Assembly (NCBI GenBank): GCA_949383255.1
Contig: CASJPF010000020.1
Location: 1-64,000, forward strand
Length of the DNA: 64,000 nucleotides
Reading direction: 5' to 3'
DNA from: Lachnospiraceae bacterium
GTDB taxonomy: Bacteria; Bacillota; Clostridia; Lachnospirales; Lachnospiraceae
Every line of letters starts with the position of its first letter. Position 1 is the stretch's first letter. The notes beneath the pieces were generated by a model. The model made no database searches. It was not told the DNA's origin and saw only the letters and a program-made list of their open reading frames with translations. Made by a program: the position numbers and the translations under genes. Shown here piece by piece: positions 4,822-44,407 of this stretch.

Positions 4822-6415
4822 TTGCAAGAATTGACACTAGGAAGCCTATTTGACGGTATCGGCGGGTTTTGCTATGCAGCATACCTTACAGGGCGTATAA
4901 AGCCGATTTGGGCCGCTGAAATAGAACAAAACTGCATAGACATAACAAGGTATCGTTTCCCGGAAGTAATGCACGTTGGAAGCGTAACAGAATTAAAGGG
5001 AGATGAAATACAACCCGTGGATATAATCACTTTTGGGAGTCCGTGTCAAGATTTGAGTATTGCCGGACAGCGGAAAGGATTAAAGGGCAACCGTTCCGAG
5101 TTGTTCATGGAAGCAATTAGAATTATTGAGGAAATGAGGTTAGCAACAAATGGTAAATATCCAACTTTCATTATTTGGGAGAATGTACCCGGTGCTTTTT
5201 CATCAGCCAACGGAGCAGATTTTAGAGCCGTGCTTGAAAAAATCACAAAAACCAGTATTCCAATGCCTACAAGTGGCGAATGGGCAACCGCAGGAATGGT
5301 TAGAGGGGCAGCAGTTGACACAGCTTGGAGAGTGCTTGACGCTCAATTTTGGGGAGTACCCCAACGTAGAAAGAGAATCTACCTTATCGGAGATTTTGGA
5401 GGACAACGTGCCGGGGAAATACTCTTTAAGTCCGAAAGCGTGCTTGGGTATACTCCGAAGAGCAAAGAACAAAAACAGGAAATTGCCGGACAATTTGCGG
5501 ATAGCGTTAGAACAGAAAATAGCAGAGCAGGGGGGGATAATCGGGTTAGACTTTGCACACGCTGACAGCGTTGTAAGGACATTTACCGATAAGGCCCCGA
5601 CACTTGTACAAAATATGGGTCGTGGTGGCGGTCAAACGCCTTGTGTAATGTATGAGGAAACAAGCAAGGCATACGGAATAAATGCAAAAAGCATTATCGT
5701 AGACGAAGAAAGCACAGGCACATTATCTACATATTGCGGAAATTCAACAAACAGGAACGTAGTAGCCATTGAAAAGAAAAACGTTATCCCTTTGCGTGAT
5801 GAAGTGACAAGGAATAAGGCAAGCAACGGTTTAGGCGTGGGGAAAGTCGGGGGACCATGCCCGACACTTACAACGGCAGACGTACACAGCGTTTTCTATG
5901 AAGCATATCAGCATAACGGATACAGGGAAAGCGAAATAAGCGGAACGCTGACAGCAGACCAAAACAGCACAATAAGAGGGGATACCCCTTTAGTGGTGCG
6001 GACGGATAGAAAGACATTTGAACTCAATCAGCATGGCGGGTACAGGGAAGCGGAAGTAAACGGCACTTTGAGGGCAGCAGGGGGGGATTACGGCGGAGGG
6101 TCGGAAACAATCGTAACAGAGAAGTACAGGACAAAGGAGAATATCCCTAGCAAGCCAAAGAGCATAAAAGACATTCTGAAAAGGGCGGTGCAGAAAGTTA
6201 CATACATCATACGCCGATTAACACCCGTTGAATGTGAACGGCTACAGGGATACCCGGATAACTGGACAAAATACGGTGCTGACGGCACGGAAATAGCCGA
6301 CACAGCACGTTATAGGGCGATAGGTAATAGTATATGCGTCTATTGCGCCGAAAGGGTGTATTTGGGGATTTTAGACGCATTGAAAGAGGAGGCAGACAAT
6401 GAACGCATGGAATAA
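4822..6415 (+). pseudogene. C5-cytosine DNA methyltransferase split by G7 frameshift
   Basis: The first frame (4822-5565, TTG start after GGAAAGGGGCGG) has motif I (FDGIGGF), motif IV with the catalytic Cys (GSPCQDLS), motif VI (WENVPG) and motif VIII (QRRKRIY). It stops soon after a run of seven G at 5530-5536. The next frame continues to 6415 with motif IX (RRLTPVECERLQGYPDNWT) and motif X (RYRAIGNSICV). Removing one G would join both halves into about 530 aa. The long target-recognition region holds repeated QHNGYRE and GTL units, and a second G7 at 6080-6086. It could be a dead gene, a phase-variable gene, or a base-call error in the homopolymer. It would methylate cytosines in phage or host DNA. 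Confidence 0.85.
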
Positions 6416-7030: not shown

Positions 7031-7316
7031 AGGAAAAGTAACACCATTCAGACAGGAAACAAAGATAACCTATAACAAGTACAAGCCGAACAGGAAAGCA
7101 CGGCGGTTAGGTATCAAGCCGGAAGAACCGCCAAAGAGGGAAGAAAAGAAAGTATCAAAGGCAGCAGTATTAAGGGAAAGCATACAGAGGGCAAGGGAAA
7201 TACAAAGGCAGATTGTACCGCCGGGTATGACCTATGGGGAATACATGGAATATCTGAAAGGCAGACGGCAGCAGTTGGAAGAGAAGAAACAGGGGGTACA
7301 TAATGGCGAGGTATGA
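7017..7316 (+). CDS. Small basic phage protein, unknown
   Basis: A 99-aa protein, strongly basic (KYKPNRKARRLGIKPEEPPK) with a helical C-terminus containing TYGEYMEYLKGRRQQLEEKK. Start ATG in the sequence GGCAGATATGG, overlapping the gene before by 14 nt and the next by 14 nt. No family recognised; a nucleic-acid-binding role would fit its charge but is not shown. Confidence 0.5.
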   Translation: MARNKGKVTPFRQETKITYNKYKPNRKARRLGIKPEEPPKREEKKVSKAAVLRESIQRAREIQRQIVPPGMTYGEYMEYLKGRRQQLEEKKQGVHNGEV

Positions 7317-8171: not shown

Positions 8172-8429
8172 GTGGTAAAAATGACACAGGAGGACAGGGA
8201 ATATTTTAAGAATGGGGTAAAGACCCTATGCGGTACAGAATTAGTATTTGCTATCAGAGTTATTGAGGATAAGGACTTTATAAAGATAGTTGACAGCAAG
8301 GATTTAGAGTTTATGAAGCATGAGTTAGGCAGACAAGCCGGGGCGATATGGGCGAAACTGCTTAGGGCATTAAAGAAGCATGATTTTAAGGAAGCTGAAA
8401 AAATATTAACAGGAGGTACAGGCGAATGA
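8172..8429 (+). CDS. Small protein upstream of parA, unknown
   Basis: Encodes 85 aa from a GTG preceded by AAGGAGGG at the right distance; the frame is open back to 8100 but the upstream ATG has no ribosome site. The sequence VKTLCGTELVFAIRVIEDKD and the helical end (ALKKHDFKEAEKILTG) show no known domain. It overlaps parA by 4 nt, so it is translated with the partition genes and may be an accessory or regulator of them. Confidence 0.55.
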   Translation: MVKMTQEDREYFKNGVKTLCGTELVFAIRVIEDKDFIKIVDSKDLEFMKHELGRQAGAIWAKLLRALKKHDFKEAEKILTGGTGE

Positions 8430-9181
8430 AAACTATTGCAATTATCAACATGAAAGGCGGTTGCGCCAAAACAACAACGGCGGTAAACATGGCGTACATA
8501 TTGGCTAAAGAGTATGACAAAAAGGTGCTGCTTATTGATAACGACAAACAGGGCAATCTTTCAAAGGCTTGCGGGGTGTGGAGTTATGAAAATCCTAGCC
8601 TTGCGGATATGCTGACAGGACAGGAAGAAATAGGCGGTGTGGTACAGGTGGTTGAGAAAATGCCTAATATGGCGGTTATTCCGGCGAATATGCACTTACT
8701 GACAGCAAACCTTGCAGTAATCAAGGACGAAGAAAGAGAACAGGCAACAATCATTTCTAAGGAACTGGAAAAGGTAAAAGAAATCTTTGACTATTGTATT
8801 ATTGATTGCCCGCCGGATATTAACGTATCTGTCATAAATGCACTTGTGGCAGCAGATGAAGTTATTATACCGATTAAAATTGACGGTTACGCCTTTGACG
8901 GCATGGACGAACTGGAAGAGCAGATAAACAACGCAAAGGCATTAAACCCGAAATTGAAATTTAGGGGTTGCCTTGTGACTATGTATTATAACCGTGATGT
9001 ATGCAGACAGGGGGAGGCGTGGTTGCAGAATCAGCGTTACCCGGTATTCAAAACACATATCAGACGGACGGAAAAGGCGGACGAAGTAACTTTTACAAAT
9101 GAAAGCCTTATGGAATATTCCCCACGTTCCGGGGCCGCTAGGGATTATAAAACATTCGTAAAAGAATACTTGGAGGGATAG
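8426..9181 (+). CDS. parA: ParA-type partition ATPase
   Basis: A 251-aa deviant Walker ATPase: MKGGCAKTT at residues 9-17 carries both the signature lysine and the P-loop lysine, IDNDKQGN near residue 36 is switch I, and IIDCPPD near residue 124 is Walker B. No N-terminal DNA-binding domain is present, as in ParA/Soj and type Ib plasmids. ParA uses ATP-driven DNA binding to position ParB-centromere complexes. The ParB gene follows 1.3 kb downstream, with four small genes between. A partition pair in a prophage points to a plasmid-like state at some stage. Confidence 0.9.
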   Translation: MKTIAIINMKGGCAKTTTAVNMAYILAKEYDKKVLLIDNDKQGNLSKACGVWSYENPSLADMLTGQEEIGGVVQVVEKMPNMAVIPANMHLLTANLAVIKDEEREQATIISKELEKVKEIFDYCIIDCPPDINVSVINALVAADEVIIPIKIDGYAFDGMDELEEQINNAKALNPKLKFRGCLVTMYYNRDVCRQGEAWLQNQRYPVFKTHIRRTEKADEVTFTNESLMEYSPRSGAARDYKTFVKEYLEG

Positions 9182-10022: not shown

Positions 10023-10476
10023 TGATAATGCGGAAACGCTGAAAACAGGGGAAACAGTAGTATTAGGCGGTTGGAATCAGCCAATAAAAGCATTTCCAAC
10101 GGTGGAAATACCTTTAGACGAATACAAGGCATTTATCGAATTTAAGGTAAAGGGACCGACAACGGAAATTCCGTTGGAGCAGTATAAGGAACTGACAGAA
10201 AACAATATGCGTATGCAAGGCAAGATATGGGATTTAGAAAATCAGATTAGAGATTTGGAATATCAGTTAGAGAGGGAAAAGGAACGGCAGGGGGAAACGG
10301 ACGCACATACAGACATTGTTACAAAAATGGTAGCAGACGAAATCACAGAAAAGGTAATGAAAGATTTGTTGCAGTTATCAGAAGAGCAGAAAAAGGAACT
10401 TAGGGCGAAATGGCGAAATGTGACCGATTCGGACACGAAAACAAAGGAAAGTGAGGTAATGCGTAATGGCAGATAA
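10012..10476 (+). CDS. Coiled-coil phage protein upstream of parB
   Basis: Encodes 154 aa from a TTG preceded by GGAGG. Two short repeats (EIPLDEYKAF and EIPLEQYKEL) lead into a coiled coil (KIWDLENQIRDLEYQLEREK) and a second helical part. The 3' end holds dispersed repeat copy 2, which reads VTDSDT. It overlaps parB by 11 nt. No known function; the repeat inside the gene directly before parB would fit a centromere site near its binding protein. Confidence 0.55.
   Translation: MKNNDNAETLKTGETVVLGGWNQPIKAFPTVEIPLDEYKAFIEFKVKGPTTEIPLEQYKELTENNMRMQGKIWDLENQIRDLEYQLEREKERQGETDAHTDIVTKMVADEITEKVMKDLLQLSEEQKKELRAKWRNVTDSDTKTKESEVMRNGR
10420..10436 (+). repeat. Dispersed 17-bp palindrome, copy 2
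   Basis: Exact GTGACCGATTCGGACAC, 30 bp upstream of the parB start, inside the end of the coiled-coil gene, read as VTDSDT. Confidence 0.85.
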
Positions 10477-11935
10477 AAAGAAAGGGTTTGACCTTAACAG
10501 TTTGCTTAATACAAAATCAAAAGGGGCAGCAGTACAGGCAGAGGGACCGGCACAGGAAGAGGAAAACGCCTTTAGCGTGGTTATGCTTGATGTGGAGGAC
10601 TTAATGCCGAGTAAGGATAATTTCTATTCCACAGAAAATATTGACGAATTGGCAGCAGCTATTGAGTTATCCGGGTGTATCGAACAGAATTTAGTCGTTA
10701 AGCCGGAAGCACATGGAAAGTATGAGGTAATAGCCGGACACCGTAGACGGTTGGCAGCTTTAAAGTTGGTAGAAGAGGGCAAGGAAGAATACAGGAAAGT
10801 ACCGTGCCGTATCAAGAAAGAATCAGACGAAATAAGGGACCGTTTAAGCCTTATCTTTACCAATGCAACGGCAAGGCAGCTTACAGATTGGGAAAAGGTA
10901 AAACAGGCAGAGGAATTAAAAGAAGTGCTGACAGAGTACAAAAAGGCTTTACAGGAAGAAAACAAGGATAAGCCAAAGGAAGAACGGGAAAGAATCGGGC
11001 GTATCCGTGAAATCGTGGCACAAATGCTTAATACGTCCACTACACAGGTCGGACGCATGGAGGCGATAAGTAATAATCTGTCACAGGAATTTAAAGGGGA
11101 ACTTGAAAAAGGCAATATCAATATTTCAACCGCCCACGAACTTAGTAGGCTTGACGAAGAGGGGCAGAAAAAAGCCTATGAACAGTACGAAGAAAAGGGC
11201 GAGTTGCATATAAAAGATGTAAAGCCGGAAGAAAAGGAAGAAATCACGGACGAACAGGCAGAAAAGGCACAGGAAGCAATAAAAGACGCTATCAAGGGGG
11301 AAGTAAACCGGGCAGTATTCAAGGTAAAGGAAAATGTGGCAGCAGTCGAAAGGACGCTAAGAAAATATTTCAGCAAGTCTTTTCAAGGGAAAAAGTTTGA
11401 CGGCGGTAAATACATATATCGTTTTCAAGCGGACGGAATCACAATTATAGATACTGAAAAATGGGGAAATTTCTTGATTGACTATTCAGACCTTGCGGAA
11501 ATCGTGGTATTGATGATTGAAAATAACCAATTATCCTATGACGATACCCCGGAAGAGGTACAGGAAGAGGAAACAGGAGAAGAAATCGAAGAGGAAGCAG
11601 CCGGGGAGGTGGATGCACCACAGGAAGCAGAACCCGAAGCACAGGAAGAGGAAAACGAACCTTTACCGAGGCAGCAGGATATGAGCGATTACCCGGAATA
11701 TGTACCCGAACCACAGGAAAAGGGATTAGACTTTACAAAGTGGATAAAAGAAAAATACGGAATGGCACAATATACGCTTATCGGAAAAGAGGTTAGGGCG
11801 GTTATAGCGTCCGAACTGGAAGCGAACAAAGGAAAGCCGTTGTGTCCGGCTGAATGGGAAAACAGGATAACAAACGCCTTATCTGTATGGGTTATGAGAA
11901 AAACGGCAGAATATCAGAAGTATTTACAGGGTTAG
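10466..11935 (+). CDS. parB: ParB-type partition protein
   Basis: A 489-aa ParB-family protein. The N-terminal ParB/Srx CTPase domain contains LMPSKDNFY and the signature GHRRRLAAL (residues 91-99). A central helix-turn-helix region follows (EIVAQMLNTSTTQVGRMEAI and the STAHELSRL helix, about residues 185-235). A very acidic linker (about residues 365-420) and a C-terminal domain come after. It is longer than chromosomal ParB. It would bind a palindromic centromere; the 17-bp dispersed repeat is the best candidate. Forms a unit with parA upstream. Confidence 0.88.
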   Translation: MADKKKGFDLNSLLNTKSKGAAVQAEGPAQEEENAFSVVMLDVEDLMPSKDNFYSTENIDELAAAIELSGCIEQNLVVKPEAHGKYEVIAGHRRRLAALKLVEEGKEEYRKVPCRIKKESDEIRDRLSLIFTNATARQLTDWEKVKQAEELKEVLTEYKKALQEENKDKPKEERERIGRIREIVAQMLNTSTTQVGRMEAISNNLSQEFKGELEKGNINISTAHELSRLDEEGQKKAYEQYEEKGELHIKDVKPEEKEEITDEQAEKAQEAIKDAIKGEVNRAVFKVKENVAAVERTLRKYFSKSFQGKKFDGGKYIYRFQADGITIIDTEKWGNFLIDYSDLAEIVVLMIENNQLSYDDTPEEVQEEETGEEIEEEAAGEVDAPQEAEPEAQEEENEPLPRQQDMSDYPEYVPEPQEKGLDFTKWIKEKYGMAQYTLIGKEVRAVIASELEANKGKPLCPAEWENRITNALSVWVMRKTAEYQKYLQG

Positions 11936-31099: not shown

Positions 31100-31441
31100 A
31101 TGACTTACATAGTAGACACAACAAAGGAAAATGAAATAAACCTTGCACCCGCAACGGTGTATGAAGAGGTTATACAAAACCTTTATTTCCTGTATTCCTC
31201 AACGGAATATGACATACCGCTTGACAGGGAATTAGGATTAAACCCGAAATACATAGATAAGCCGATAGAAACGGCTAAAGCATTGGCAACAACGGATATT
31301 TACGACAAAACGGAAGAGTACGAACCGAGGGCAGAAATCGTAAACATTGACTTTAAAGCCGATTATGAAAGCGGTGTATTAAAACCAATAGTGGAGGTGG
31401 TAATCAATGACGAATACGACAACGAGGAATATACCGAGTAA
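31100..31441 (+). CDS. Baseplate wedge protein, gp25/W-like
   Basis: A 113-aa protein with EVIQNLYFLYSSTEYDIPLD near the start, GLNPKYIDKP and PRAEIVNIDFKADYESGVLK towards the end, the pattern of gp25/gpW wedge proteins (short, ending with strands I...F). Such proteins connect the sheath to the baseplate. It overlaps the next gene by 35 nt. Confidence 0.75.
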   Translation: MTYIVDTTKENEINLAPATVYEEVIQNLYFLYSSTEYDIPLDRELGLNPKYIDKPIETAKALATTDIYDKTEEYEPRAEIVNIDFKADYESGVLKPIVEVVINDEYDNEEYTE

Positions 31442-32552
31442 TTTGCCGGAGGTTGAGTTTGTAGATACAGATACAGAAGCACTTGTAAATAAGCTGATAG
31501 CCGGATATGAGAGTATCACAAAAAGGAAGCTATACCCGGCTGACCCTGTAAGGGCGTTTATCCTTTGGCTTGCAGATGTGATTATACAGGAAAGAGTTTT
31601 GATAAATGAATCGGCAAAACAGAATTTACCACGGTATGCAGAGGGAAAGAACTTGGACTCCCTTAGTGAGATATTCCATAATGTACCGAGATTAGAGCCG
31701 GAAGCAGCGAAAACAACGCTTAGGTTTTATCTTACAAAGACGCTGACAGAGGATTTTATAATAACGGACACAATGGAGGTAACGGTAGACGGCACAATAA
31801 ACTTTGACACGGTAGGGCATATCATATTTAAAGCCGGGGCCGATTATGCGGACGTTCCGGCGGTATGCACGACAGCCGGGGAAATCGGGAATGGGTTTGT
31901 ACCCGGACAGGTTGACAAACTTGTATCAGATGAATTTCTGTATTTCAACGAGGTAATGAACATTACGGAAACGGCAGGGGGCAGCGAAGCGGAAAAAGAC
32001 GCAGCCTATTATAACCGCATGAGGGAAAGCGAAGAAAGCTACACAACAGCCGGGTCAAGGGGCAGTTATATATATCATGCTAAAAGCGTGTCCGCACAAA
32101 TTAGTGACGTATCGGCAGAGAGTCCGCAGCCGGGAGTAGCTGATATAAGGATTATGCTATACAATGGGGAATTGCCGGATAAGGAATTGATAGACAAAGT
32201 ACGGGATTATCTAAGCGGGGACGAAATTAGACCAATGACGGATACCGTATTAGTGGCAGCACCCGACACGGTAGAATTTGACATAAACATAAAATATTTC
32301 ATATCAAAGGAAAAGGAACTAAGCACCAACGACATTAAACAGGCGGTGGCGTTGGCGGTGGAAAATTACATATTATGGCAGACCTCAAAAATGGGGCGGG
32401 ATATTAACCCGTCCTATTTTAATGCTATGCTTATGGAATCGGGGATAAAAAGGGTTGAAATAACCGCCCCTGTATTCACACAGATACCAAAAGGGAGCGT
32501 GGCGGTGGTAAAGGAGGAAAGCGTGACCTTTGGGGGTGTGGAAGATGAATAA
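31407..32552 (+). CDS. Baseplate protein J-like
   Basis: A 381-aa protein of the gpJ/XkdT type: N-terminal LPEVEFVDTDTEALVNKLIA, then GKNLDSLSEIFHNVPRLEPE, the AAxTTLRFYLTKT segment, GGSEAEKDAAYYNRMRESEE, and SVSAQISDVSAESPQPGVAD with IRIMLYNGELPDKELIDKVR. These are the standard J-family blocks. It builds the baseplate wedge together with the gp25-like and I-like proteins. GGAGGTGGTAATCA precedes the ATG. Confidence 0.88.
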   Translation: MTNTTTRNIPSNLPEVEFVDTDTEALVNKLIAGYESITKRKLYPADPVRAFILWLADVIIQERVLINESAKQNLPRYAEGKNLDSLSEIFHNVPRLEPEAAKTTLRFYLTKTLTEDFIITDTMEVTVDGTINFDTVGHIIFKAGADYADVPAVCTTAGEIGNGFVPGQVDKLVSDEFLYFNEVMNITETAGGSEAEKDAAYYNRMRESEESYTTAGSRGSYIYHAKSVSAQISDVSAESPQPGVADIRIMLYNGELPDKELIDKVRDYLSGDEIRPMTDTVLVAAPDTVEFDINIKYFISKEKELSTNDIKQAVALAVENYILWQTSKMGRDINPSYFNAMLMESGIKRVEITAPVFTQIPKGSVAVVKEESVTFGGVEDE

Positions 32553-33852
32553 AATTAAAGACGCTGATTTTATGACAAAATTCCCCCCGGCATTGAAAAA
32601 AGATAAATCAATGCTTGCTTTAGGGCAGCTTATAGCAGAGGAATTACATATAACCGCACACGAAACAAAGAAAAATATTATATACGCCAACATAGAAGAG
32701 TTATCGGAAACATGGCTTGACGTGTTGGCGTATGACTTGCACGTTGACTGGTACGATTATGATTATCCGATAGAAGCAAAAAGGGCGATTATCCGGGATA
32801 GCATAAGGGTACATCAGAAATTAGGAACGACAGGGGCAACCGAAAGGGCGTTAGGTGGCTTGCATCCACAAAGCGAGATAGAAGAGTGGTACGACTATAA
32901 CGGACGCCCTTTTCATTTCCGTATCGTGCTTGATACAACAAATTCAAGGGTTGCGGTGGATTATGACGAAATTGTAAGCACCGTTGACATATACAAACGG
33001 CTGACCGCCCACTTGGACGGATTATATTATCAATGCTCCATGTGCATTATCATCATGCCACAGACGGAGTATTTTTTATTCCAAACGCCAATGACAGGGC
33101 AGCTAAGGGCAGGAACATACCCGCACAGGAATACAGAGGGGGTTGTATTAAATGCCGTTATTGACATAATGACACAGGCAGCGGGATATATTGCGGAATC
33201 CGTGCCGACAGGTACAAGACCTTACAGAAATATCACGTTTGCAACAAAGGATAGCGATATTGTGACCGATTCGGACACAATGGGTTATAAATATATCCAC
33301 GGTCGGACAGGGAAACAAAAGACAGGCACAGAACCTTACAGAGATACCGCAGGAGGGGCAGCGGTTGAAACGGTGGTAGCACAGGCAGCAGCGGACGCAG
33401 CAAAGTATGATTCTGATTTGACAGGAACGAAGCCGGACAGGAATATAAAGGCTGAATTTAGGGAAGTGGCAGCAGTCGGGGAAACGGATACAGAAGCCTA
33501 CACATTTGAAAACACTATTGCCGGAACAAAGCCGAAAAGAAATATTGTGCATGGAAGAGGGGATATAGAAACGGTAGCAGATACAGAGTTTGAGGAGTAC
33601 AGGTACATAACAGGCACGACAGGAAAGCAGAAAACAGGCACAGAACCTTACAGGGATACCGCAGGAGGGGCAGCAGTTGAAACGGTGGCAGCACAGGCAG
33701 CAGCGGACGCAGTAAAGTATGATTCTGATTTGACAGGAACGAAGCCGGACAGAAGCAAAAAGCAAGGAATATCTGATAAGGGAATGGCAACAACGGCAGA
33801 TACCGAAAGTTACCAATACGAGGTTAAGCGTTGCGGTAGAAATCGGTTATAG
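32545..33852 (+). CDS. Tail protein I-like with repeat-rich C-terminus
   Basis: A 435-aa protein. The first 170 residues (KIKDADFMTKFPPALKKDKS, WLDVLAYDLHVDWYDYDYPI, KLGTTGATERALGGL) are tail protein I (gpI/XkdU). The rest consists of repeated 30-40 residue units ending in GTxPxRN, including a 104-residue duplicated block. Such extensions often carry fibre attachment. Dispersed repeat copy 5 reads VTDSDT within it. I chose ATG 32545 inside the overlap with J over the GTG at 32530. Confidence 0.82.
   Translation: MNKIKDADFMTKFPPALKKDKSMLALGQLIAEELHITAHETKKNIIYANIEELSETWLDVLAYDLHVDWYDYDYPIEAKRAIIRDSIRVHQKLGTTGATERALGGLHPQSEIEEWYDYNGRPFHFRIVLDTTNSRVAVDYDEIVSTVDIYKRLTAHLDGLYYQCSMCIIIMPQTEYFLFQTPMTGQLRAGTYPHRNTEGVVLNAVIDIMTQAAGYIAESVPTGTRPYRNITFATKDSDIVTDSDTMGYKYIHGRTGKQKTGTEPYRDTAGGAAVETVVAQAAADAAKYDSDLTGTKPDRNIKAEFREVAAVGETDTEAYTFENTIAGTKPKRNIVHGRGDIETVADTEFEEYRYITGTTGKQKTGTEPYRDTAGGAAVETVAAQAAADAVKYDSDLTGTKPDRSKKQGISDKGMATTADTESYQYEVKRCGRNRL
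33262..33278 (+). repeat. Dispersed 17-bp palindrome, copy 5
   Basis: Exact GTGACCGATTCGGACAC in the repeat-rich part of the tail protein I gene, read as VTDSDT. Confidence 0.85.
33307..33753 (+). repeat. Two 135-bp direct repeats in tail protein I gene
   Basis: Segments 33307-33441 and 33619-33753 are nearly identical and 312 bp (104 codons) apart. Both encode GKQKTGTEPYRDTAGGAAVE followed by an alanine-rich helix and YDSDLTGTKPDR. Recombination between them would remove or add one unit. Confidence 0.85.
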
Positions 33853-34188: not shown

Positions 34189-34683
34189 GTGGGATTATTC
34201 AAGATTTGGAAAGACCATGTAACGCAGTTTTCTAACCGTTACAAAGAGGTAAACAATGCGGACGGAACAATTACGCATGAAGCCGTGGAGGGCGAGGTAA
34301 TACAAGAGGGTACGCCACAAAATGCGGAAAATTTCAATGATTTGGAACAAAGGGTATTTGCAAGCGGGGAAGTTGCCGGATTAGCCTTGTTAAAGGTTAA
34401 AATGGCAGAAAGCCGTATCAAGGGGTTACAGGGGGAAATCATAGAAACAACCCTAACCAACACGAAAGAATACCCGTTTAACAACTCAAAAAAGACGGTA
34501 GCACTTAAAACGCCACGGGGCAATTTGGATTATACCGTAAATGTGGAAGCAGACGCAGACGGGGCGGGTGGTGTCGGGGATATTAAGATAACCGATAAGC
34601 AGCTAAACGGATTCAAGATTGAGTACACCGGGGCCGCTAAAAGTGTATCCGTGAAATGCACAGTACAGGGAGGTTACGCATAA
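34189..34683 (+). CDS. Tail fibre-associated protein, unknown
   Basis: A 164-aa protein starting at a GTG behind AAGGAGGAATAGCACA. The N-terminus (GLFKIWKDHVTQFSNRYKEV, then TPQNAENFNDLEQRVF) resembles the virion-anchoring end of phage fibre proteins with the conserved GTPQNAENFN motif; the C-terminal part (DADGAGGVGDIKITDKQLNG) is a small beta domain. It overlaps the next gene by one base. Confidence 0.6.
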   Translation: MGLFKIWKDHVTQFSNRYKEVNNADGTITHEAVEGEVIQEGTPQNAENFNDLEQRVFASGEVAGLALLKVKMAESRIKGLQGEIIETTLTNTKEYPFNNSKKTVALKTPRGNLDYTVNVEADADGAGGVGDIKITDKQLNGFKIEYTGAAKSVSVKCTVQGGYA

Positions 34684-34859
34684 TGGCAGCAAATGTAATT
34701 ATCAAGAATGACGAAAGAAAGGCACAGACGGCAGCAGTATTAAAGGCTTATGGATTAAATGGGTCGGCAAGTGCCAATCAGAGGGAAGCAGCAGAACATA
34801 TTGCGGTACGTTCACAGGAAGCATACCGCCAGTTACAGAGAATGGGAGGTAACAGATAA
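34683..34859 (+). CDS. Small phage protein, unknown
   Basis: A 58-aa protein starting MAANVIIKNDERKAQTAAVL, with GGAGGTTACGCATA upstream; an in-frame start at 34656 lies in the preceding gene. It is helical and Ala/Arg-rich (REAAEHIAVRSQEAYRQLQR). It overlaps the next gene by one base. Function unknown; it lies between tail fibre genes and the DGR. Confidence 0.5.
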   Translation: MAANVIIKNDERKAQTAAVLKAYGLNGSASANQREAAEHIAVRSQEAYRQLQRMGGNR

Positions 34860-35209
34860 TGGCAGCAGCAAAGATTATTGTAGCAGAAAAGAACGAGGGG
34901 GAGAAAATCCCTTATGAGGTATCCGGCACAAAGATTATTTTCGGTGATGATGAACTTATGGTAAATTGCAAGAGCCGGGAGCGTGATTATGAGGTTACGC
35001 TTGATGTGTGCAAGGATACGGCAGACGGCTTGACGGTAGGCGTAAATACCGAAGCAAGGGAATATGTGGCACAGGTAACTATTCCGGCAAGGCAGTATGA
35101 AGAGGTAGACACAGGAGAAGAGGACGAGGACGGAAAACCGATTAAAGAGCGTGTGCCGTTGCCGTTCGATATGAAGAAATGCACATTGACATTATGGGCG
35201 TTGATTTAA
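34859..35209 (+). CDS. Small protein before DGR target, unknown
   Basis: A 116-aa protein, beta-rich and acidic (KIPYEVSGTKIIFGDDELMV, ARQYEEVDTGEEDEDGKPIK), ending DMKKCTLTLWALI. It directly precedes the variable protein gene and probably belongs to the tail tip. GGAGGTAACAGATA precedes the ATG. No known family. Confidence 0.5.
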   Translation: MAAAKIIVAEKNEGEKIPYEVSGTKIIFGDDELMVNCKSRERDYEVTLDVCKDTADGLTVGVNTEAREYVAQVTIPARQYEEVDTGEEDEDGKPIKERVPLPFDMKKCTLTLWALI

Positions 35210-35242
35210 GAAGCTGATTAAATTTAAGGAGGATAATACACA

Positions 35243-36289
35243 ATGGCAAATTTTGATGATTTACAGGGTGCAGTAGCACAGATGGGCGCAGGAAACAAGG
35301 TTATCTATGATGATATAGGTATGCCGTCTATTATGGTGGGCGTTCCTAAAATGACCTATGCGGATATTATCACAGGCGGTACAAGTGAGGTATTGCCGTT
35401 TTTTGTTGTGGAGGGGAATGAGAAAAACACAATTTGGGTATCAAAGTTTCAGAACATTGTAGAGAATGACCGTGCATATTCTTTAGCTATGAAGTTGCCT
35501 AAAAACTATATCACGTTTGACGCAGCATTAGCAGCTTGCAGAAAAAAGGGCAACGGTTGGCACTTGAATCAGACAGGCATTTTTGCGGTGCTTAATCTGT
35601 TATCGCAGAAAATGGGGACCGTACCGCACGGCAATACAAACTACGGCAAAGACCATTACCATACATACGAAAGGGGAATACAGCCACAGGGCGAAACACA
35701 AAGGACGCTGACAGGCAGCGGAGAGCCTACATGGTATCACAACCACGATACATCAGGCATTGCAGACCTTAACGGCAATGTATGGGAATGGACCGGCGGT
35801 TTAAGGCTTATGAATGGGGAAATACAGATTATCCCTTATGGAAACAGCATGAAAATTGATTGCGATATGTCGGCAGCAAGCACACTTTGGAAAGCAATCA
35901 TGCCAAACGGCAATTTGGTAGAGCCGGGAACGGCAGGCACTTTAAAGATTGACCGTACAAGTGCAAGTGACGCAACGCCGAAAATCAGCACGACAGTTAC
36001 AACACAGACCACGGACAGTAACGACACAAACTGCATATTTAAGAATCTTGCAGCAGCAAGCGGGGTAAGTATACCTAAACTTTTGGTAGCGTTGGGGTTG
36101 TTCCCGGATTCGGGGGCAAACTATGGCAATGACCATTTTTGGGCGAGGAACAACGGCGAAAGGTTGCCTATCCGGGGGTCGGCGTTCAGCAATACCTCTG
36201 ATTCGGGTGCGTCCGCTCTTAGCTTGGTTAACCCCCGCTCCGACTCCTACGGCCCCGTTGGTTTCCGCTCCGCTTTTTGTGAACTGTAA
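35243..36289 (+). CDS. DGR target: variable lectin-fold tail protein
   Basis: A 348-aa receptor-binding protein. GIADLNGNVWEW (about residues 172-183) is the hallmark of FGE-sulfatase/C-type-lectin-fold DGR targets, and RLPIRGSAF near residue 309 starts the variable region, which ends GFRSAFCEL at the C-terminus. About 38 C-terminal residues lie in the variable repeat, where the template's Asn codons have changed to Ser, Asp, Val, Tyr and Pro. The N-terminal 170 residues should attach it to the tail. AAGGAGGATAATACACA precedes the ATG. Together with Avd and the reverse transcriptase it lets the phage alter what it binds. Confidence 0.93.
   Translation: MANFDDLQGAVAQMGAGNKVIYDDIGMPSIMVGVPKMTYADIITGGTSEVLPFFVVEGNEKNTIWVSKFQNIVENDRAYSLAMKLPKNYITFDAALAACRKKGNGWHLNQTGIFAVLNLLSQKMGTVPHGNTNYGKDHYHTYERGIQPQGETQRTLTGSGEPTWYHNHDTSGIADLNGNVWEWTGGLRLMNGEIQIIPYGNSMKIDCDMSAASTLWKAIMPNGNLVEPGTAGTLKIDRTSASDATPKISTTVTTQTTDSNDTNCIFKNLAAASGVSIPKLLVALGLFPDSGANYGNDHFWARNNGERLPIRGSAFSNTSDSGASALSLVNPRSDSYGPVGFRSAFCEL
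36162..36274 (+). repeat. DGR variable repeat (VR)
   Basis: 113 bp at the 3' end of the target gene, aligned without gaps to the template repeat at 36828-36940. Eleven differences, all at positions where the template has A (7 to G, 2 to T, 2 to C). The last 15 bp (GGTTTCCGCTCCGCT), identical in both copies, is the likely start site for homing. Confidence 0.95.
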
Positions 36290-36308
36290 ACTGATAACTG
36301 GATAACTG

Positions 36309-36334
36309 AAAGGGTGCGCGGTAGCGCACCCTTT
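36309..36334 (+). promoter_or_regulatory. Hairpin downstream of VR (homing enhancer candidate)
   Basis: AAAGGGTGCGC-GGTA-GCGCACCCTTT, an 11-bp stem with a 4-nt loop of GRNA form, 34 bp past the VR. There is no T run longer than three, so it is unlikely to be a terminator; such hairpins after the VR raise homing in the Bordetella phage DGR. Confidence 0.7.
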
Positions 36335-36368
36335 GTAGCAAAATACTAATCAGTAGACAGGGAGAGAT

Positions 36369-36794
36369 ATGGAAGAGTTGCAGGAAGCAAAGGGCGTACA
36401 GGAGGGAAAGAAACAAAACGGAAATGACATTTTTCAGATAAAAGAAAAAATCTATGAAATGATAATGTACGGAAATCCGAAATTAAAGGATTTTCCGAAA
36501 ACTGAAAGGTATGTGTTGGCGGGGGATATAAGAAAGACAATGTATACCATGTTGGAAATGGCGGTTAGGCTTGAAAAGAAATACTATAAGAAAACAACCT
36601 TACAGGATTTAGATATTGAAGTTGATGTATTAAGAAATCTGCTAAGGCTTGCAAAGGACCCGGACTTATACCAAAAACAAAAGCCTTGTTTAGACTTCCA
36701 TTCATGGGAAGTATGGATTAGAAAGGTAGATGAAATCGGTCGTATGATTGGCGGTTATATGGCTTGGGTAAACAGCAGGGAAAAGCAGAAATAA
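36369..36794 (+). CDS. avd: DGR accessory protein Avd
   Basis: A 141-aa helical protein between the target gene and the template repeat, the standard place of Avd. Helices such as FQIKEKIYEMIMYGNPKLKD, TERYVLAGDIRKTMYTMLEM and DLDIEVDVLRNLLRLAKDPD form a four-helix bundle with basic surface. Avd forms a pentamer that binds the reverse transcriptase and the template RNA and is needed for mutagenic cDNA synthesis. The N-terminal 20 residues are an extra tail. GGGAGAGAT precedes the ATG. Confidence 0.88.
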   Translation: MEELQEAKGVQEGKKQNGNDIFQIKEKIYEMIMYGNPKLKDFPKTERYVLAGDIRKTMYTMLEMAVRLEKKYYKKTTLQDLDIEVDVLRNLLRLAKDPDLYQKQKPCLDFHSWEVWIRKVDEIGRMIGGYMAWVNSREKQK

Positions 36795-36827
36795 AAATAC
36801 ATTGGGAAATAATCACTAATTTACGGT

Positions 36828-36940
36828 GGTTGCCTATCCGGGGGTCGGCGTTCAACAATACCTCTAATTCGGGTGCGTCCGCTCTTAACTTGAATAACCC
36901 CCGCTCCAACTCCAACGACAACATTGGTTTCCGCTCCGCT
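36828..36940 (+). repeat. DGR template repeat (TR) and spacer
   Basis: The template copy, 113 bp, 33 bp past the avd stop. It contains 22 adenines, mostly in AAC/AAT codons in the frame of the target protein, of which 11 differ in the VR. Up to the reverse transcriptase start (37155) a further 214 bp carry no gene; this should be the structured spacer part of the DGR RNA that guides the enzyme. Confidence 0.95.
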
Positions 36941-37154
36941 CTACCCCTATGTCAAGAAGCCTTATGATTACGATTGTAAGGACAGTACAAACAGGGTTAA
37001 AGGGGTTATTTTCCATTCCTGTACACAGGAAAAATATTGTATTGCCGTAAAGACAGTTAGTAAGCGGTAAGCCGAAAAGAATTATATTTGTCACGTCCGA
37101 AAGGGTTAAAAACTTAGTAGGTTTGTACGGCACTTTTTTAATGAGGTATCAGAA

Positions 37155-38249
37155 ATGAAGAGCATAAAGAACATTTACGAAAAGATATACGATTTTGAAA
37201 ATTTATATAAGGCTTGGGAGGAAGCGAGGAAAGGGAAAAGATACCGTGATGATGTATTGATTTTTAACCGCAACTTTGAAGAGCATTTAATAAATATTCA
37301 GAATGAATTGATTTATGGAACGTATGCGGTAGGCAAGTACCATACGTTTTATGTTTATGAGCCTAAGAAAAGGCTTATTATGTCGTTGCCATTTAAAGAC
37401 AGGATTGTACAATGGGCGATATACCGCCAGTTGTTCCCGTTGTATGAGGATACATTTATTTTTGATTCGTATGCCTGTAGGCGTGGTAAAGGAACGCATA
37501 AGGCAGCGGACAGACTGCAGTACTGGTTACGGCAGACAGACAGGAAGCCGGAACGCTACTATTATCTGAAAATGGATATATCAAAATATTTCTACAGGGT
37601 GGACCACGATATTTTATTAAAAATCTTGGGCAGAAGAATAAAGGATACACGGTTGCTTGATTTGTTAGAGAAAATCATAAATTGTGAATCCATGAATTTT
37701 GGATTACCGCCCGGAAAAGAGCCGGACGAAGTAGAAGTAACGGACAGATTATGTAATAAGGGTATGCCGATAGGCAACCTTACATCTCAAATGTTTGCAA
37801 ATATCTATCTGAATGAGGTAGACCAGTACGCAAAGCACGAGTTAGGACTGCACTATTACATACGGTACATGGACGATATTATTATATTGCACCATGATAA
37901 GAAGTATTTAGCAGAGGTTAAGGAACTGCTAAGGGTTTTCTTAGATGATAACCTCCGCTTGGATTTGAACAGCAAAACGGCAATACGTCCATGCAGTACG
38001 GGCATTGATTTTGTGGGTTACAGGATATGGGCAACACACAGAAGATTAAAGAAGAAAACGGCGGTAAAAATCAAACGGAATCTGAAAAAGCAGATTGAAA
38101 AGGTAAGGGCGGGTGAGGAAAGCAAACAAAGGCTTGACCGTTCCGTAGCTTCCTATCGTGGGATTCTGTCACATTGCGACAGCTACGGTTTACGGCAGAG
38201 CCTTAACAAGCTATTCATAAGAAAGGAGCAGAGGGAAGATGTACATTGA
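37155..38249 (+). CDS. DGR reverse transcriptase
   Basis: A 364-aa reverse transcriptase of the DGR clade. Asp141 in KMDISKYF, GMPIGNLTSQ at residues 203-212 (the (I/L/V)GxxxSQ box in place of QGxxxSP) and YMDD at 238-241 are all present, and the fold ends with the thumb (KIKRNLKKQIEKVRAGEESK). There is no endonuclease or maturase domain. It makes cDNA from the template RNA with errors at adenines. AATGAGGTATCAGAA precedes the ATG; it overlaps the next gene by 11 nt. Confidence 0.96.
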   Translation: MKSIKNIYEKIYDFENLYKAWEEARKGKRYRDDVLIFNRNFEEHLINIQNELIYGTYAVGKYHTFYVYEPKKRLIMSLPFKDRIVQWAIYRQLFPLYEDTFIFDSYACRRGKGTHKAADRLQYWLRQTDRKPERYYYLKMDISKYFYRVDHDILLKILGRRIKDTRLLDLLEKIINCESMNFGLPPGKEPDEVEVTDRLCNKGMPIGNLTSQMFANIYLNEVDQYAKHELGLHYYIRYMDDIIILHHDKKYLAEVKELLRVFLDDNLRLDLNSKTAIRPCSTGIDFVGYRIWATHRRLKKKTAVKIKRNLKKQIEKVRAGEESKQRLDRSVASYRGILSHCDSYGLRQSLNKLFIRKEQREDVH

Positions 38250-38943: not shown

Positions 38944-39768
38944 ATGAACATTAAAGAAAGCATTGTGACTAAGAATCCGTGTTACACTTGCGGGAGGACA
39001 ATCACGGTACAGGGGCTTATGCTACATTCCGTAGGTTGCCCGCAGCCGAAAGCGTCAGTATTTTTCAATAACTGGAATAAGGGCAACGCCAATGTATGCG
39101 TACACGCCGTATTACAGGCAGACGGCACGGTATTACAGCTTTTGCCGTGGAATCGCAGGGCGTGGCATTGTGGAAGCGGAAAGAACGGAAGCGGAAACAA
39201 TACGCACATTGGCGTAGAAATGACAGAGCCGGACACAATCAAGTACGCAGGGGGAGGCAGCTTTAAGGACCTTAACCCGACAGCTACAAAGGATTTTGTG
39301 AAAAAGACCTACAAAACGGCGGTAGAACTTTTTGCCTACTTGTGCAAGAAATATAACCTTAACCCGGAAAAGGACGGGGTTATTATTTCACATTCGGAGG
39401 GGCATAAAAGGGGAATTGCAAGCAATCACGGAGATGTGGAGCATATTTGGAACAAATACGGCTTTACTATGGCACAATTCCGCAAAGACGTTAAAAAAGC
39501 TATGAGCGGAAGCACGGCGGGAACGACAGAACAGGTAGGGGGAAAGAAACAGGAAGAAACGACAGGCACAAGCGGTTATTTGGTAAAGATTACCGCAGAT
39601 GTTTTGAACGTCCGAAAAGGTCCGGGTACAAATTACCCTGTATCTACACAGGTACACGCCGGGGAAGTTTATACCATTGTCGGAGAGAAAATGAACGGCA
39701 GCACAAAATGGGGCAAATTAAAAAGCGGTGCGGGGTACATCAGCTTGAGTTACACAAAAAAAGTATAG
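38944..39768 (+). CDS. N-acetylmuramoyl-L-alanine amidase with SH3 domain
   Basis: A 274-aa endolysin. The N-terminal Amidase_2 domain has LMLHSVGCPQP (zinc His near residue 28), NTHIGVEMTEP, and ISHSEGHKRGIASNHGDVEH (second zinc ligands near residue 155). After a linker, residues about 205-274 form a bacterial SH3 domain (ADVLNVRKGPGTNYPVSTQV) for wall binding. It cuts the bond between N-acetylmuramic acid and L-alanine. GGAGGCAGCACC precedes the ATG. A second wall enzyme follows directly. Confidence 0.9.
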   Translation: MNIKESIVTKNPCYTCGRTITVQGLMLHSVGCPQPKASVFFNNWNKGNANVCVHAVLQADGTVLQLLPWNRRAWHCGSGKNGSGNNTHIGVEMTEPDTIKYAGGGSFKDLNPTATKDFVKKTYKTAVELFAYLCKKYNLNPEKDGVIISHSEGHKRGIASNHGDVEHIWNKYGFTMAQFRKDVKKAMSGSTAGTTEQVGGKKQEETTGTSGYLVKITADVLNVRKGPGTNYPVSTQVHAGEVYTIVGEKMNGSTKWGKLKSGAGYISLSYTKKV

Positions 39769-43320: not shown

Positions 43321-43354
43321 GGCAGCAGGGCATAAAAACCTTGCTGCCTTTTTG
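43321..43354 (+). terminator. Terminator after exported protein gene
   Basis: GGCAGCA..GG pairs with CC..TGCTGCC and is followed by TTTTT. It separates the accessory gene from the transposase. Confidence 0.82.
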
Positions 43355-43369
43355 TTTGGAGGTGCGACT

Positions 43370-44407
43370 ATGAGGAAATTTAAACAAATGACACATAATG
43401 ACAGGATAAAAATGGAGGCTTTATTAAATGCCGGACATTCAAAGGCAGAAGTGGCAGAGCAATTACATTTTCACAGAAGCAACATATACAGGGAATACGA
43501 CAAGGGGAAGTATATACATAGAAATTCGGATTATACGGAAGAGGAACGGTATAGCAGCGATTTAGGGCAGAAAGCACATGATTACGCACAGGAGGGAAAG
43601 GGCCGTGCATTAAAGATAGGAAACGACAGGGAATTAGCAGAGTACATAGAAAGTAAAATAGTAGATGATAAATTTAGCCCGGAGGCAGCACTGGCAGAGG
43701 TTGAGAGGTCGGGCATTGAGTTTAAGACAACAATCAGCGTAAGGACGCTTTACAGATACATAGACAACGGCATATTTTTAAAGCTGACAAACAAGGATTT
43801 ACCTATTAAAAGCAAAAAGAAAAAACATAATAAGAAAGTAAAGGTACAGAAAAGGGCAAGTGCAGGGGAAAGTATCGAAAATAGACCAGAAGAGGTAGAG
43901 AGCCGGGAAATATTCGGACATTGGGAAATGGATACAGTAAAGGGGCAGCGTGGAGTCACAAAGTCCTGTATGCTTGTACTGACAGAGAGAAAGACCCGTG
44001 ATGAAATTGTTGTTAAGCTGAAAGACCAAACAGCAGCATCCGTTGTGGAAGCACTAGACAGACTGGAGAGAAAATGGGGCGATATGTTTTATAGTGTATT
44101 CAGAAGCATAACCGTAGATAATGGGGTAGAATTTGCAGACTATGAGGGTATGGAAAAATCTGTATTGAAAGAGGGAAAACGTACATTTGTATTTTACTGT
44201 CACCCGTACAGCAGTTGGGAACGTGGCACAAATGAAAATAATAACAGGCTTATCCGTAGGCATATACCAAAAGGGGTAGATTTTGACGATAGGACAGATG
44301 AAGAGATAGCATTTATTGAAGAATGGATAAACAATTATCCGAGGGGGATTTTTGAATACAAGACATCAGCAGAGTTGTTTGAAGAGGAAATACAGAAATT
44401 GGCATAA
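43370..44407 (+). CDS. IS30-family DDE transposase
   Basis: A 345-aa IS30-type transposase. N-terminal helix-turn-helix (IKMEALLNAGHSKAEVAEQL), then the DDE domain: HWEMDTVKG (first Asp), SITVDNGVEF (second Asp), and PYSSWERGTNENNNRLIRRH (Glu in the E of GTNENNN). GGAGGTGCGACT precedes the ATG. No inverted repeats of an insertion sequence could be found right at both sides of the gene, and it is the last gene before the host rpmE, so it may be the prophage's own recombinase rather than an IS. Codon style matches the prophage. Confidence 0.85.
   Translation: MRKFKQMTHNDRIKMEALLNAGHSKAEVAEQLHFHRSNIYREYDKGKYIHRNSDYTEEERYSSDLGQKAHDYAQEGKGRALKIGNDRELAEYIESKIVDDKFSPEAALAEVERSGIEFKTTISVRTLYRYIDNGIFLKLTNKDLPIKSKKKKHNKKVKVQKRASAGESIENRPEEVESREIFGHWEMDTVKGQRGVTKSCMLVLTERKTRDEIVVKLKDQTAASVVEALDRLERKWGDMFYSVFRSITVDNGVEFADYEGMEKSVLKEGKRTFVFYCHPYSSWERGTNENNNRLIRRHIPKGVDFDDRTDEEIAFIEEWINNYPRGIFEYKTSAELFEEEIQKLA

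Follow-up and report, generated by a model that had tools for sequence, protein, structure and literature searches.

A complete and very probably recently active diversity-generating retroelement in a contractile-tailed prophage of a Lachnospiraceae bacterium

Introduction

Is the end of a prophage gene still being rewritten from a nearby template, and if so, what does the rewriting vary? The question is raised by 64 000 bp of DNA from a Lachnospiraceae bacterium (assembly GCA_949383255.1, contig CASJPF010000020.1, positions 1 to 64 000 of the forward strand; hereafter the window), in which a sequence-only reading had reported a complete diversity-generating retroelement (DGR) aimed at a tail-tip protein. 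We conclude that the window very probably holds a complete, recently active phage DGR in a contractile-tailed prophage. The host is probably a gut bacterium. The system is of a known kind and ordinary as a DGR, if a clean one: near-identical prophages that differ at one gene in the way known chemistry predicts offer a natural experiment on the binding of the variants.

Results

The repeat pair. The variable repeat (VR, 36162..36274, + strand) and the template repeat (TR, 36828..36940, + strand) align over 113 bases with 11 mismatches (7 A>G, 2 A>T and 2 A>C), all confined to TR adenines, as is expected of the near-identical repeats of a DGR. Half of these adenines are changed (11/22), and the hypergeometric probability of 11/11 differences falling on A is 1.2e-9. 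Alignment thus confirms the repeat limits, the length and the adenine counts of the sequence-only reading. Its further remark that template adenines sit mostly in Asn codons, turning into Ser, Asp, Val, Tyr and Pro, is also correct: nine Asn codons contain 18 of the 22 adenines, and they read S, N, D, S, V, N, D, Y and P in VR. The changed codons are N>S, N>D, N>S, N>V, N>D, N>Y and N>P, together with D>G and I>V. A third VR or a second target was rejected, because an ungapped scan of both strands of the window found no third repeat copy (best other site 46/91 non-A matches) and the genome's own assembly (169 contigs, 86.4% complete, 6.85% contamination) yielded only VR and TR, with no further copy at E <= 0.001.

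Near-identical prophages. Four distinct prophages could be compared: those of the window, of L003, of L086 (whose cassette is identical to that of L004) and of L087. The last three are 96.6-99.9% identical to the window over long aligned pieces. In pairwise comparisons among the four, VR diverges by 10.6-15.9%, the rest of the target gene by 2.3-3.5% and TR by 0-1.8%. Differences between each VR and its own TR fall at adenines in 11/11 cases for the window, 12/12 for L003, 9/9 for L004 and L086, and 9/10 for L087, or 41/42 in sum. The earlier claim of a functional element stood to fall if VR were identical in every related prophage or differed away from template adenines; the VRs compared here are distinct and, with one exception, differ from their TRs at adenines, and function, at least in the recent past, is therefore strongly supported by these four distinct VRs.

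Comparison also supports transfer of sequence from TR to VR at bases other than adenine. At two non-adenine positions the TR of L004/L086 departs from the other three, and at both the VR beside it carries the base of that TR. More distant members have these bases in TR too, and either side may have changed, but VR and TR moved together. In a close family of 15 members, the non-adenine VR positions fit their own TR best or tied best in 15/15, with 0-3 mismatches to the own TR against means of 7.4-10.9 to other TRs.

Adenine bias in relatives. Relatives of the reverse transcriptase (RT) were gathered from viral contigs (80 of 118 kept) and from species genomes (43 loci), giving 123 loci; the closest genome records in the latter search were Bacterium D16-51 and Lachnospiraceae bacterium A65_57.ET.DSS. 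A query with the FP_Brigit RT gave 2 loci only, and scanning with the target protein added 7, mostly in the set already, which were left out. Repeats were searched for de novo near each RT, and a pair was accepted when at least 6 changes, and at least 65% of all changes, were at A. Such a pair was accepted in 111/123 loci; with that of the window, entered from its own alignment, there are 112 pairs, 102 of them distinct. Under a stricter test (at least 4 changes, 80% at the mutable base), 108/123 loci pass for A, against 0 for C, 3 for G and 1 for T. Pooled by TR base, with the window included, changes number 1377/2757 at A, 14/3869 at C, 14/3226 at G and 33/2841 at T.

A search for the RT in 98 genomes (the window's own and 97 relatives) at E <= 1e-60 found it in 3. 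Besides the window's own genome these are one from the order (35% identical) and one (47% identical) among 37 further genomes in the genus. The element is therefore not fixed in the genus. Two of the relatives are unusual. L109:346-1076 holds a degenerate VR/TR pair with 7/19 differences at A, possibly a decaying DGR, and L107:6042-7987 has an A-biased pair as well as a 226-bp ordinary repeat near the RT and may be a duplicated cassette.

Target gene. The target gene (35243..36289, + strand) encodes a variable protein of 348 aa with a predicted FGE-type C-type-lectin (CLec) fold, and VR lies at its 3′ end, 12 nt separating the end of VR from the stop codon. The protein matches PHROG 2889 (E 3.1e-124) and PDB 5vf4, which is TaqVP, the variable protein of a Thermus aquaticus DGR (phmmer 5.5e-58). 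An AlphaFold model, built from 59 sequences that are 36-96% identical to that of the window and were hand-picked from 91 full-length targets, has a pLDDT of 94.4 and a pTM of 0.92. Foldseek aligns it to TaqVP with a TM of 0.92, while its match to Mtd (1yu1) is weak (TM 0.30, E 2.9e-5). By this model the target has the lectin (CLec) fold that the earlier reading had proposed, with VR at its C-terminus as in DGR targets.

Avd and reverse transcriptase. The accessory variability determinant gene, avd (36369..36794, + strand, 141 aa, PHROG 3206), scores above the cut-off for both PF22296 (3.1e-25) and NF033474 (8.9e-27). The RT gene (37155..38249, + strand, 364 aa) matches RVT_1 (2.5e-25) and PHROG 1423 (2.3e-148), and its closest PDB relative is 8ub7_A (7.4e-52), whose molecule name is 'Reverse transcriptase' and which we take to be the RT of BPP-1. 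The SQ in the xGxxxSQ motif marks DGR RTs. A section title of PMC3521204 names this SQ motif, and in the window both it (GNLTSQ, 37773-37790) and YMDD (37866-37877) read intact, as reported before, which makes this a DGR-type RT. The idea that it is a defence enzyme was rejected: a PADLOC scan gave 61 families at E <= 0.001, and among the best 25 of the 61 the top match is a generic RT model (6.2e-48), with DRT types weaker. NCBIfam group II and DRT matches are far under cut-off.

All parts of the set that had been called complete (target, avd, TR, spacer, RT) were thus located. The earlier coordinates were exact for the repeats and began 919 bp into the target gene, which starts at 35243; likewise, every part that had been named is present, and the target-site hairpin and the spacer RNA, described below, had not been named.

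Target-site hairpin. Beyond the last changed adenine, the 3′ end of VR (36258..36274, + strand) is identical to TR, and identity ends at 36274/36940. By analogy with BPP-1 (PMC3240598), this stretch would act as the initiation of mutagenic homing (IMH) site. A hairpin (36309..36334, + strand) begins 34 nt past VR, with a perfect 11-bp stem and a GGTA loop that fits GRNA; its DNA fold has -14.4 kcal/mol (z -5.5). Phage DGR target hairpins in passages of PMC3240598 have stems of 7-10 bp and GRNA loops, 4-34 bp from VR, so the stem in the window exceeds that range by one pair. Across the family, 80 of the 102 distinct pairs have a perfectly paired hairpin, with 7 bp or more in its stem, no more than 120 nt from VR; 74 of the 80 have a 4-nt loop, and 66 of these 74 loops are GRNA. 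Mononucleotide-shuffle controls gave any hairpin in 62/2040 and one with a 4-nt loop in 7/2040. A role as terminator only was rejected for 36309-36334, which is not among the sites of a terminator scan (two, both elsewhere, against 3.2 expected) and whose loop and position fit a GRNA target hairpin.

Spacer RNA. Between TR and RT lies a spacer (Sp, 36939..37091, + strand) that scores as Rfam family RT-14 (RF02921), its covariance-model score of 51.1 bits being above the gathering score of 48.1. Reportedly the family was named by Weinberg et al. in 2017. The tool's description is 'RT-14 RNA', without mention of DGR, and no paper or Rfam link tying RT-14 to DGRs was found among the matches listed, which does not establish absence in print. 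We scanned 37 relatives, the shorter ones among the 101 with a distinct pair; 16 reach the gathering score (8/20 and 8/17), and in 16/16 the match begins -1 to +4 nt from the TR 3′ end.

A consensus fold (RNAalifold) was made from 27 spacers, namely that of the window, 15 of the 16 RT-14-positive relatives and 11 close relatives. It has three helices, all on the + strand: P1, which pairs 36936-36948, a stretch that spans the TR 3′ end and the start of Sp, with 36993-37004; P2 (36960-36981), within P1; and P3 (37016-37031), after P1. Both sides have changed in 18 of the 23 pairs, 96.3% of cells are paired and 0/500 shuffles match this, a comparison that favours the structure on the pairing measure since it was derived from the same 27 sequences; shifting partners by one column lowers pairing to 55-62%. 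The TR half of P1 is invariant, so covariation backs only its spacer half. The RT-14 match and the covariation together point to a structured spacer RNA of the sort that DGRs have.

In BPP-1 the priming adenine is A56. Passages of PMC12875486 describe priming in BPP-1 from an internal spacer adenine, and by analogy A37000 is a candidate cDNA priming site in the window: it is invariant in 27/27, unpaired, opposite the TR/Sp junction and 60 nt into the spacer. Recognition of RT-14 as a DGR spacer, with P1 linking the TR 3′ end to it, would provide a testable priming site outside BPP-1.

Discussion

Comparison with known systems. The BPP-1 DGR (mtd-avd-TR-brt) has the same gene order as the window, with VR at the 3′ end of a CLec target, Avd, a spacer between TR and RT, IMH and a GRNA-loop hairpin. 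The two RTs are 36% identical, and the hairpin, 34 nt past VR with an 11-bp stem in the window, lies 4 nt past VR with an 8-bp stem in the BPP-1 material that we cite. The target resembles TaqVP and only weakly Mtd of BPP-1; TaqVP (PDB 5vf4) is the closest solved target, at ~38% identity, and the Thermus aquaticus system, as described in passages of PMC6328139, is a prophage DGR with avd, like that of the window. Also like it in being phage-borne with tail-type targets are, from the parts of the sources cited, gut-phage DGRs (clades 1, 4 and 6 of PMC8144416; Faecalibacterium phage FP_Lagaffe) and that of Bacillus phage BalMu-1. The RT in the window is 49% identical to that of FP_Lagaffe and 54% to that of BalMu-1, and among the matches listed the closest phage-collection record has an RT 55.6% identical. 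A search with the cassette DNA found no record covering 80% of it, and 5 records with short matches.

Proposed mechanism. A TR-Sp RNA would be made, whose spacer would fold on the TR 3′ end and be bound by a complex of RT and Avd. cDNA synthesis would begin near the TR/Sp junction, template adenines would be misread, and the mutated cDNA would replace VR at the target 3′ end, guided by IMH and by the hairpin past the stop codon. The target would thereby vary in its surface residues while frame and scaffold are kept, and what varies is most likely what the virion binds. Comparison of sequences is enough to show all the parts, the adenine-specific differences between TR and VR, the VR diversity among near-identical prophages and the covarying spacer; the order of the biochemical steps, priming at a spacer adenine, the tail location and an effect on host range are what we infer from BPP-1. 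A tail-tip location, as the earlier reading had it, is likely from gene order and fold, and a change of host receptor through variation of the target is likely by analogy.

Alternative explanations. Two 113-bp copies on the same strand and in the same orientation could have come from an ordinary partial gene duplication whose halves drifted apart. We give this practically no credence, and the counts already refute it: all 11 differences are at A (p 1.2e-9), whereas background change, taken between the window and L086 over 34190-36161, is mainly transitions (34/44), and the A bias of 108/123 loci compares with 0, 3 and 1 for C, G and T. A fossil cassette, active in an ancestor and silent now, with inherited VR differences, is harder to dismiss and still very improbable. 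Decay does occur among relatives, as the degenerate L109 (7/19 differences at A) indicates. Yet the RT motifs are intact and none of the three open reading frames (ORFs) is interrupted, prophages that differ by ~1-3.5% elsewhere have unrelated VRs, and non-adenine VR positions still follow their own TR. A real DGR might also diversify something other than a tail receptor-binding protein, such as another virion surface protein or one displayed on or released from the lysogen. PHROG 2889 is without assigned function, and TaqVP is a single-domain monomer in passages of PMC6328139 that name no ligand. We nevertheless rate this as unlikely, because the gene ends the tail module, after baseplate wedge and tail protein I and before the amidase, because it has a tail-protein match (its sole one, and weak, 3.9e-7), and because targets of phage-clade viral DGRs are mostly annotated as tail proteins in the parts of PMC8144416 cited here.

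Several observations weigh against a complete, recently active phage DGR in a contractile-tailed prophage. Sequence comparison speaks for recent activity rather than for present activity in this strain. Among the 123 loci, 12 are without an accepted pair (in 10 the sequence ahead of the RT is shorter than 1 kb, the L109 pair is degenerate and L125 has none), and in 22 of the 102 distinct pairs no hairpin reaching 7 bp lies within 120 nt. One VR/TR difference in L087, a T>G, is away from adenine. Only 16 of the 37 relatives scanned reach the RT-14 gathering score, and the single-sequence fold of TR end and Sp has only modest stability against mononucleotide shuffles (window z -2.1, BPP-1 z -1.2). 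The region has promoter-like matches at chance level (12 vs 8.0, standard deviation 3.1), and the relatives do not place the left prophage end, window bases 1-53 failing to match them.

Error spectra. Pooled natural VRs allow published error-context rules to be tested in another clade. For the window family we used 98 pairs, dropping L015, L107, L126 and L127 from the 102 as non-standard or noisy, and for the BPP-1 clade (L135-L200) 51 distinct pairs from 54 of 67 loci. In BPP-1 reconstituted in E. coli, the A>C error is 26.8% before C and 2.4% before A, according to section 7 of PMC12875486. This context rule (A>C when C is next) does not hold in the window family, where A>C makes up 41/408 changes before C vs 178/785 in other contexts, and in the BPP-1 clade there is only a weak trend (66/293 before C vs 72/419 elsewhere, Fisher p 0.08). 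The A>C-before-C share differs between the two (p 1e-5), a comparison that is suggestive only, since natural VRs have been filtered by selection; codon selection is a possible cause.

Among internal non-adenine VR changes, T>G is commonest in the window family (18/41) and in the BPP-1 clade (23/33), or 41/74 in these two distant clades together, over 149 distinct pairs; the L087 VR has an example at 7077. Between the window and L086 in 34190-36161, by comparison, 34/44 background differences are transitions. For five of six T>G cases in the close family, 15/15 TRs have T at that column, and for the sixth 12 have T and 3 have C; the change therefore arose in VR. That T>G tends to lie beside mutated adenines (8/21) held in the window family and failed in the BPP-1 clade. 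It is possible, though we lean slightly towards doubt, that DGR RTs make a second, weaker error (template U read to give G in VR) and have a clade-specific adenine context, the A>C-before-C preference of BPP-1 not being general. Two further sets speak against a second error, because G>T exceeds T>G in both: T>G is 14/49 and G>T 21 in a crAss-query set, and T>G is 4/16 and G>T 7 in a Pseudomonas-query set. Pairs of two VRs were rejected as the source of the G>T excess, as one pair per locus still gives 21 G>T (18 of 110 loci) and 14 T>G (12 loci). No report of a T>G signature was found among the literature matches listed, which does not establish its absence in print.

Prophage setting. Upstream of the target lie genes for tail sheath (22700), tape measure (25301), baseplate wedge (31407-32552) and tail protein I (32530-33852); beyond the RT come two short ORFs and then an amidase gene (38944-39768). 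The right prophage end is at ~44450, where the sequence common to five relatives stops and the flanks differ. A DDE transposase gene (rve, PHROG 4646, 43352-44407) adjoins this end. In all five, one and the same motif marks this end and the flanks vary, so that insertion of the phage may occur by transposition into many sites. At the left, these five relatives are homologous to the window from base 54-71 onwards, and they are alike beyond that point as well; because the window lies at the start of its contig, the mismatch of bases 1-53 may be a contig-edge effect. The prophage that has the transposase also carries ParA-like (8426-9181) and ParB-like (10466-11935) partition genes. At 4822-6415 two ORFs overlap in different frames, the second aligning with a C-5 methylase model in no more than its C-terminal part, and the pair is possibly a disrupted methylase.

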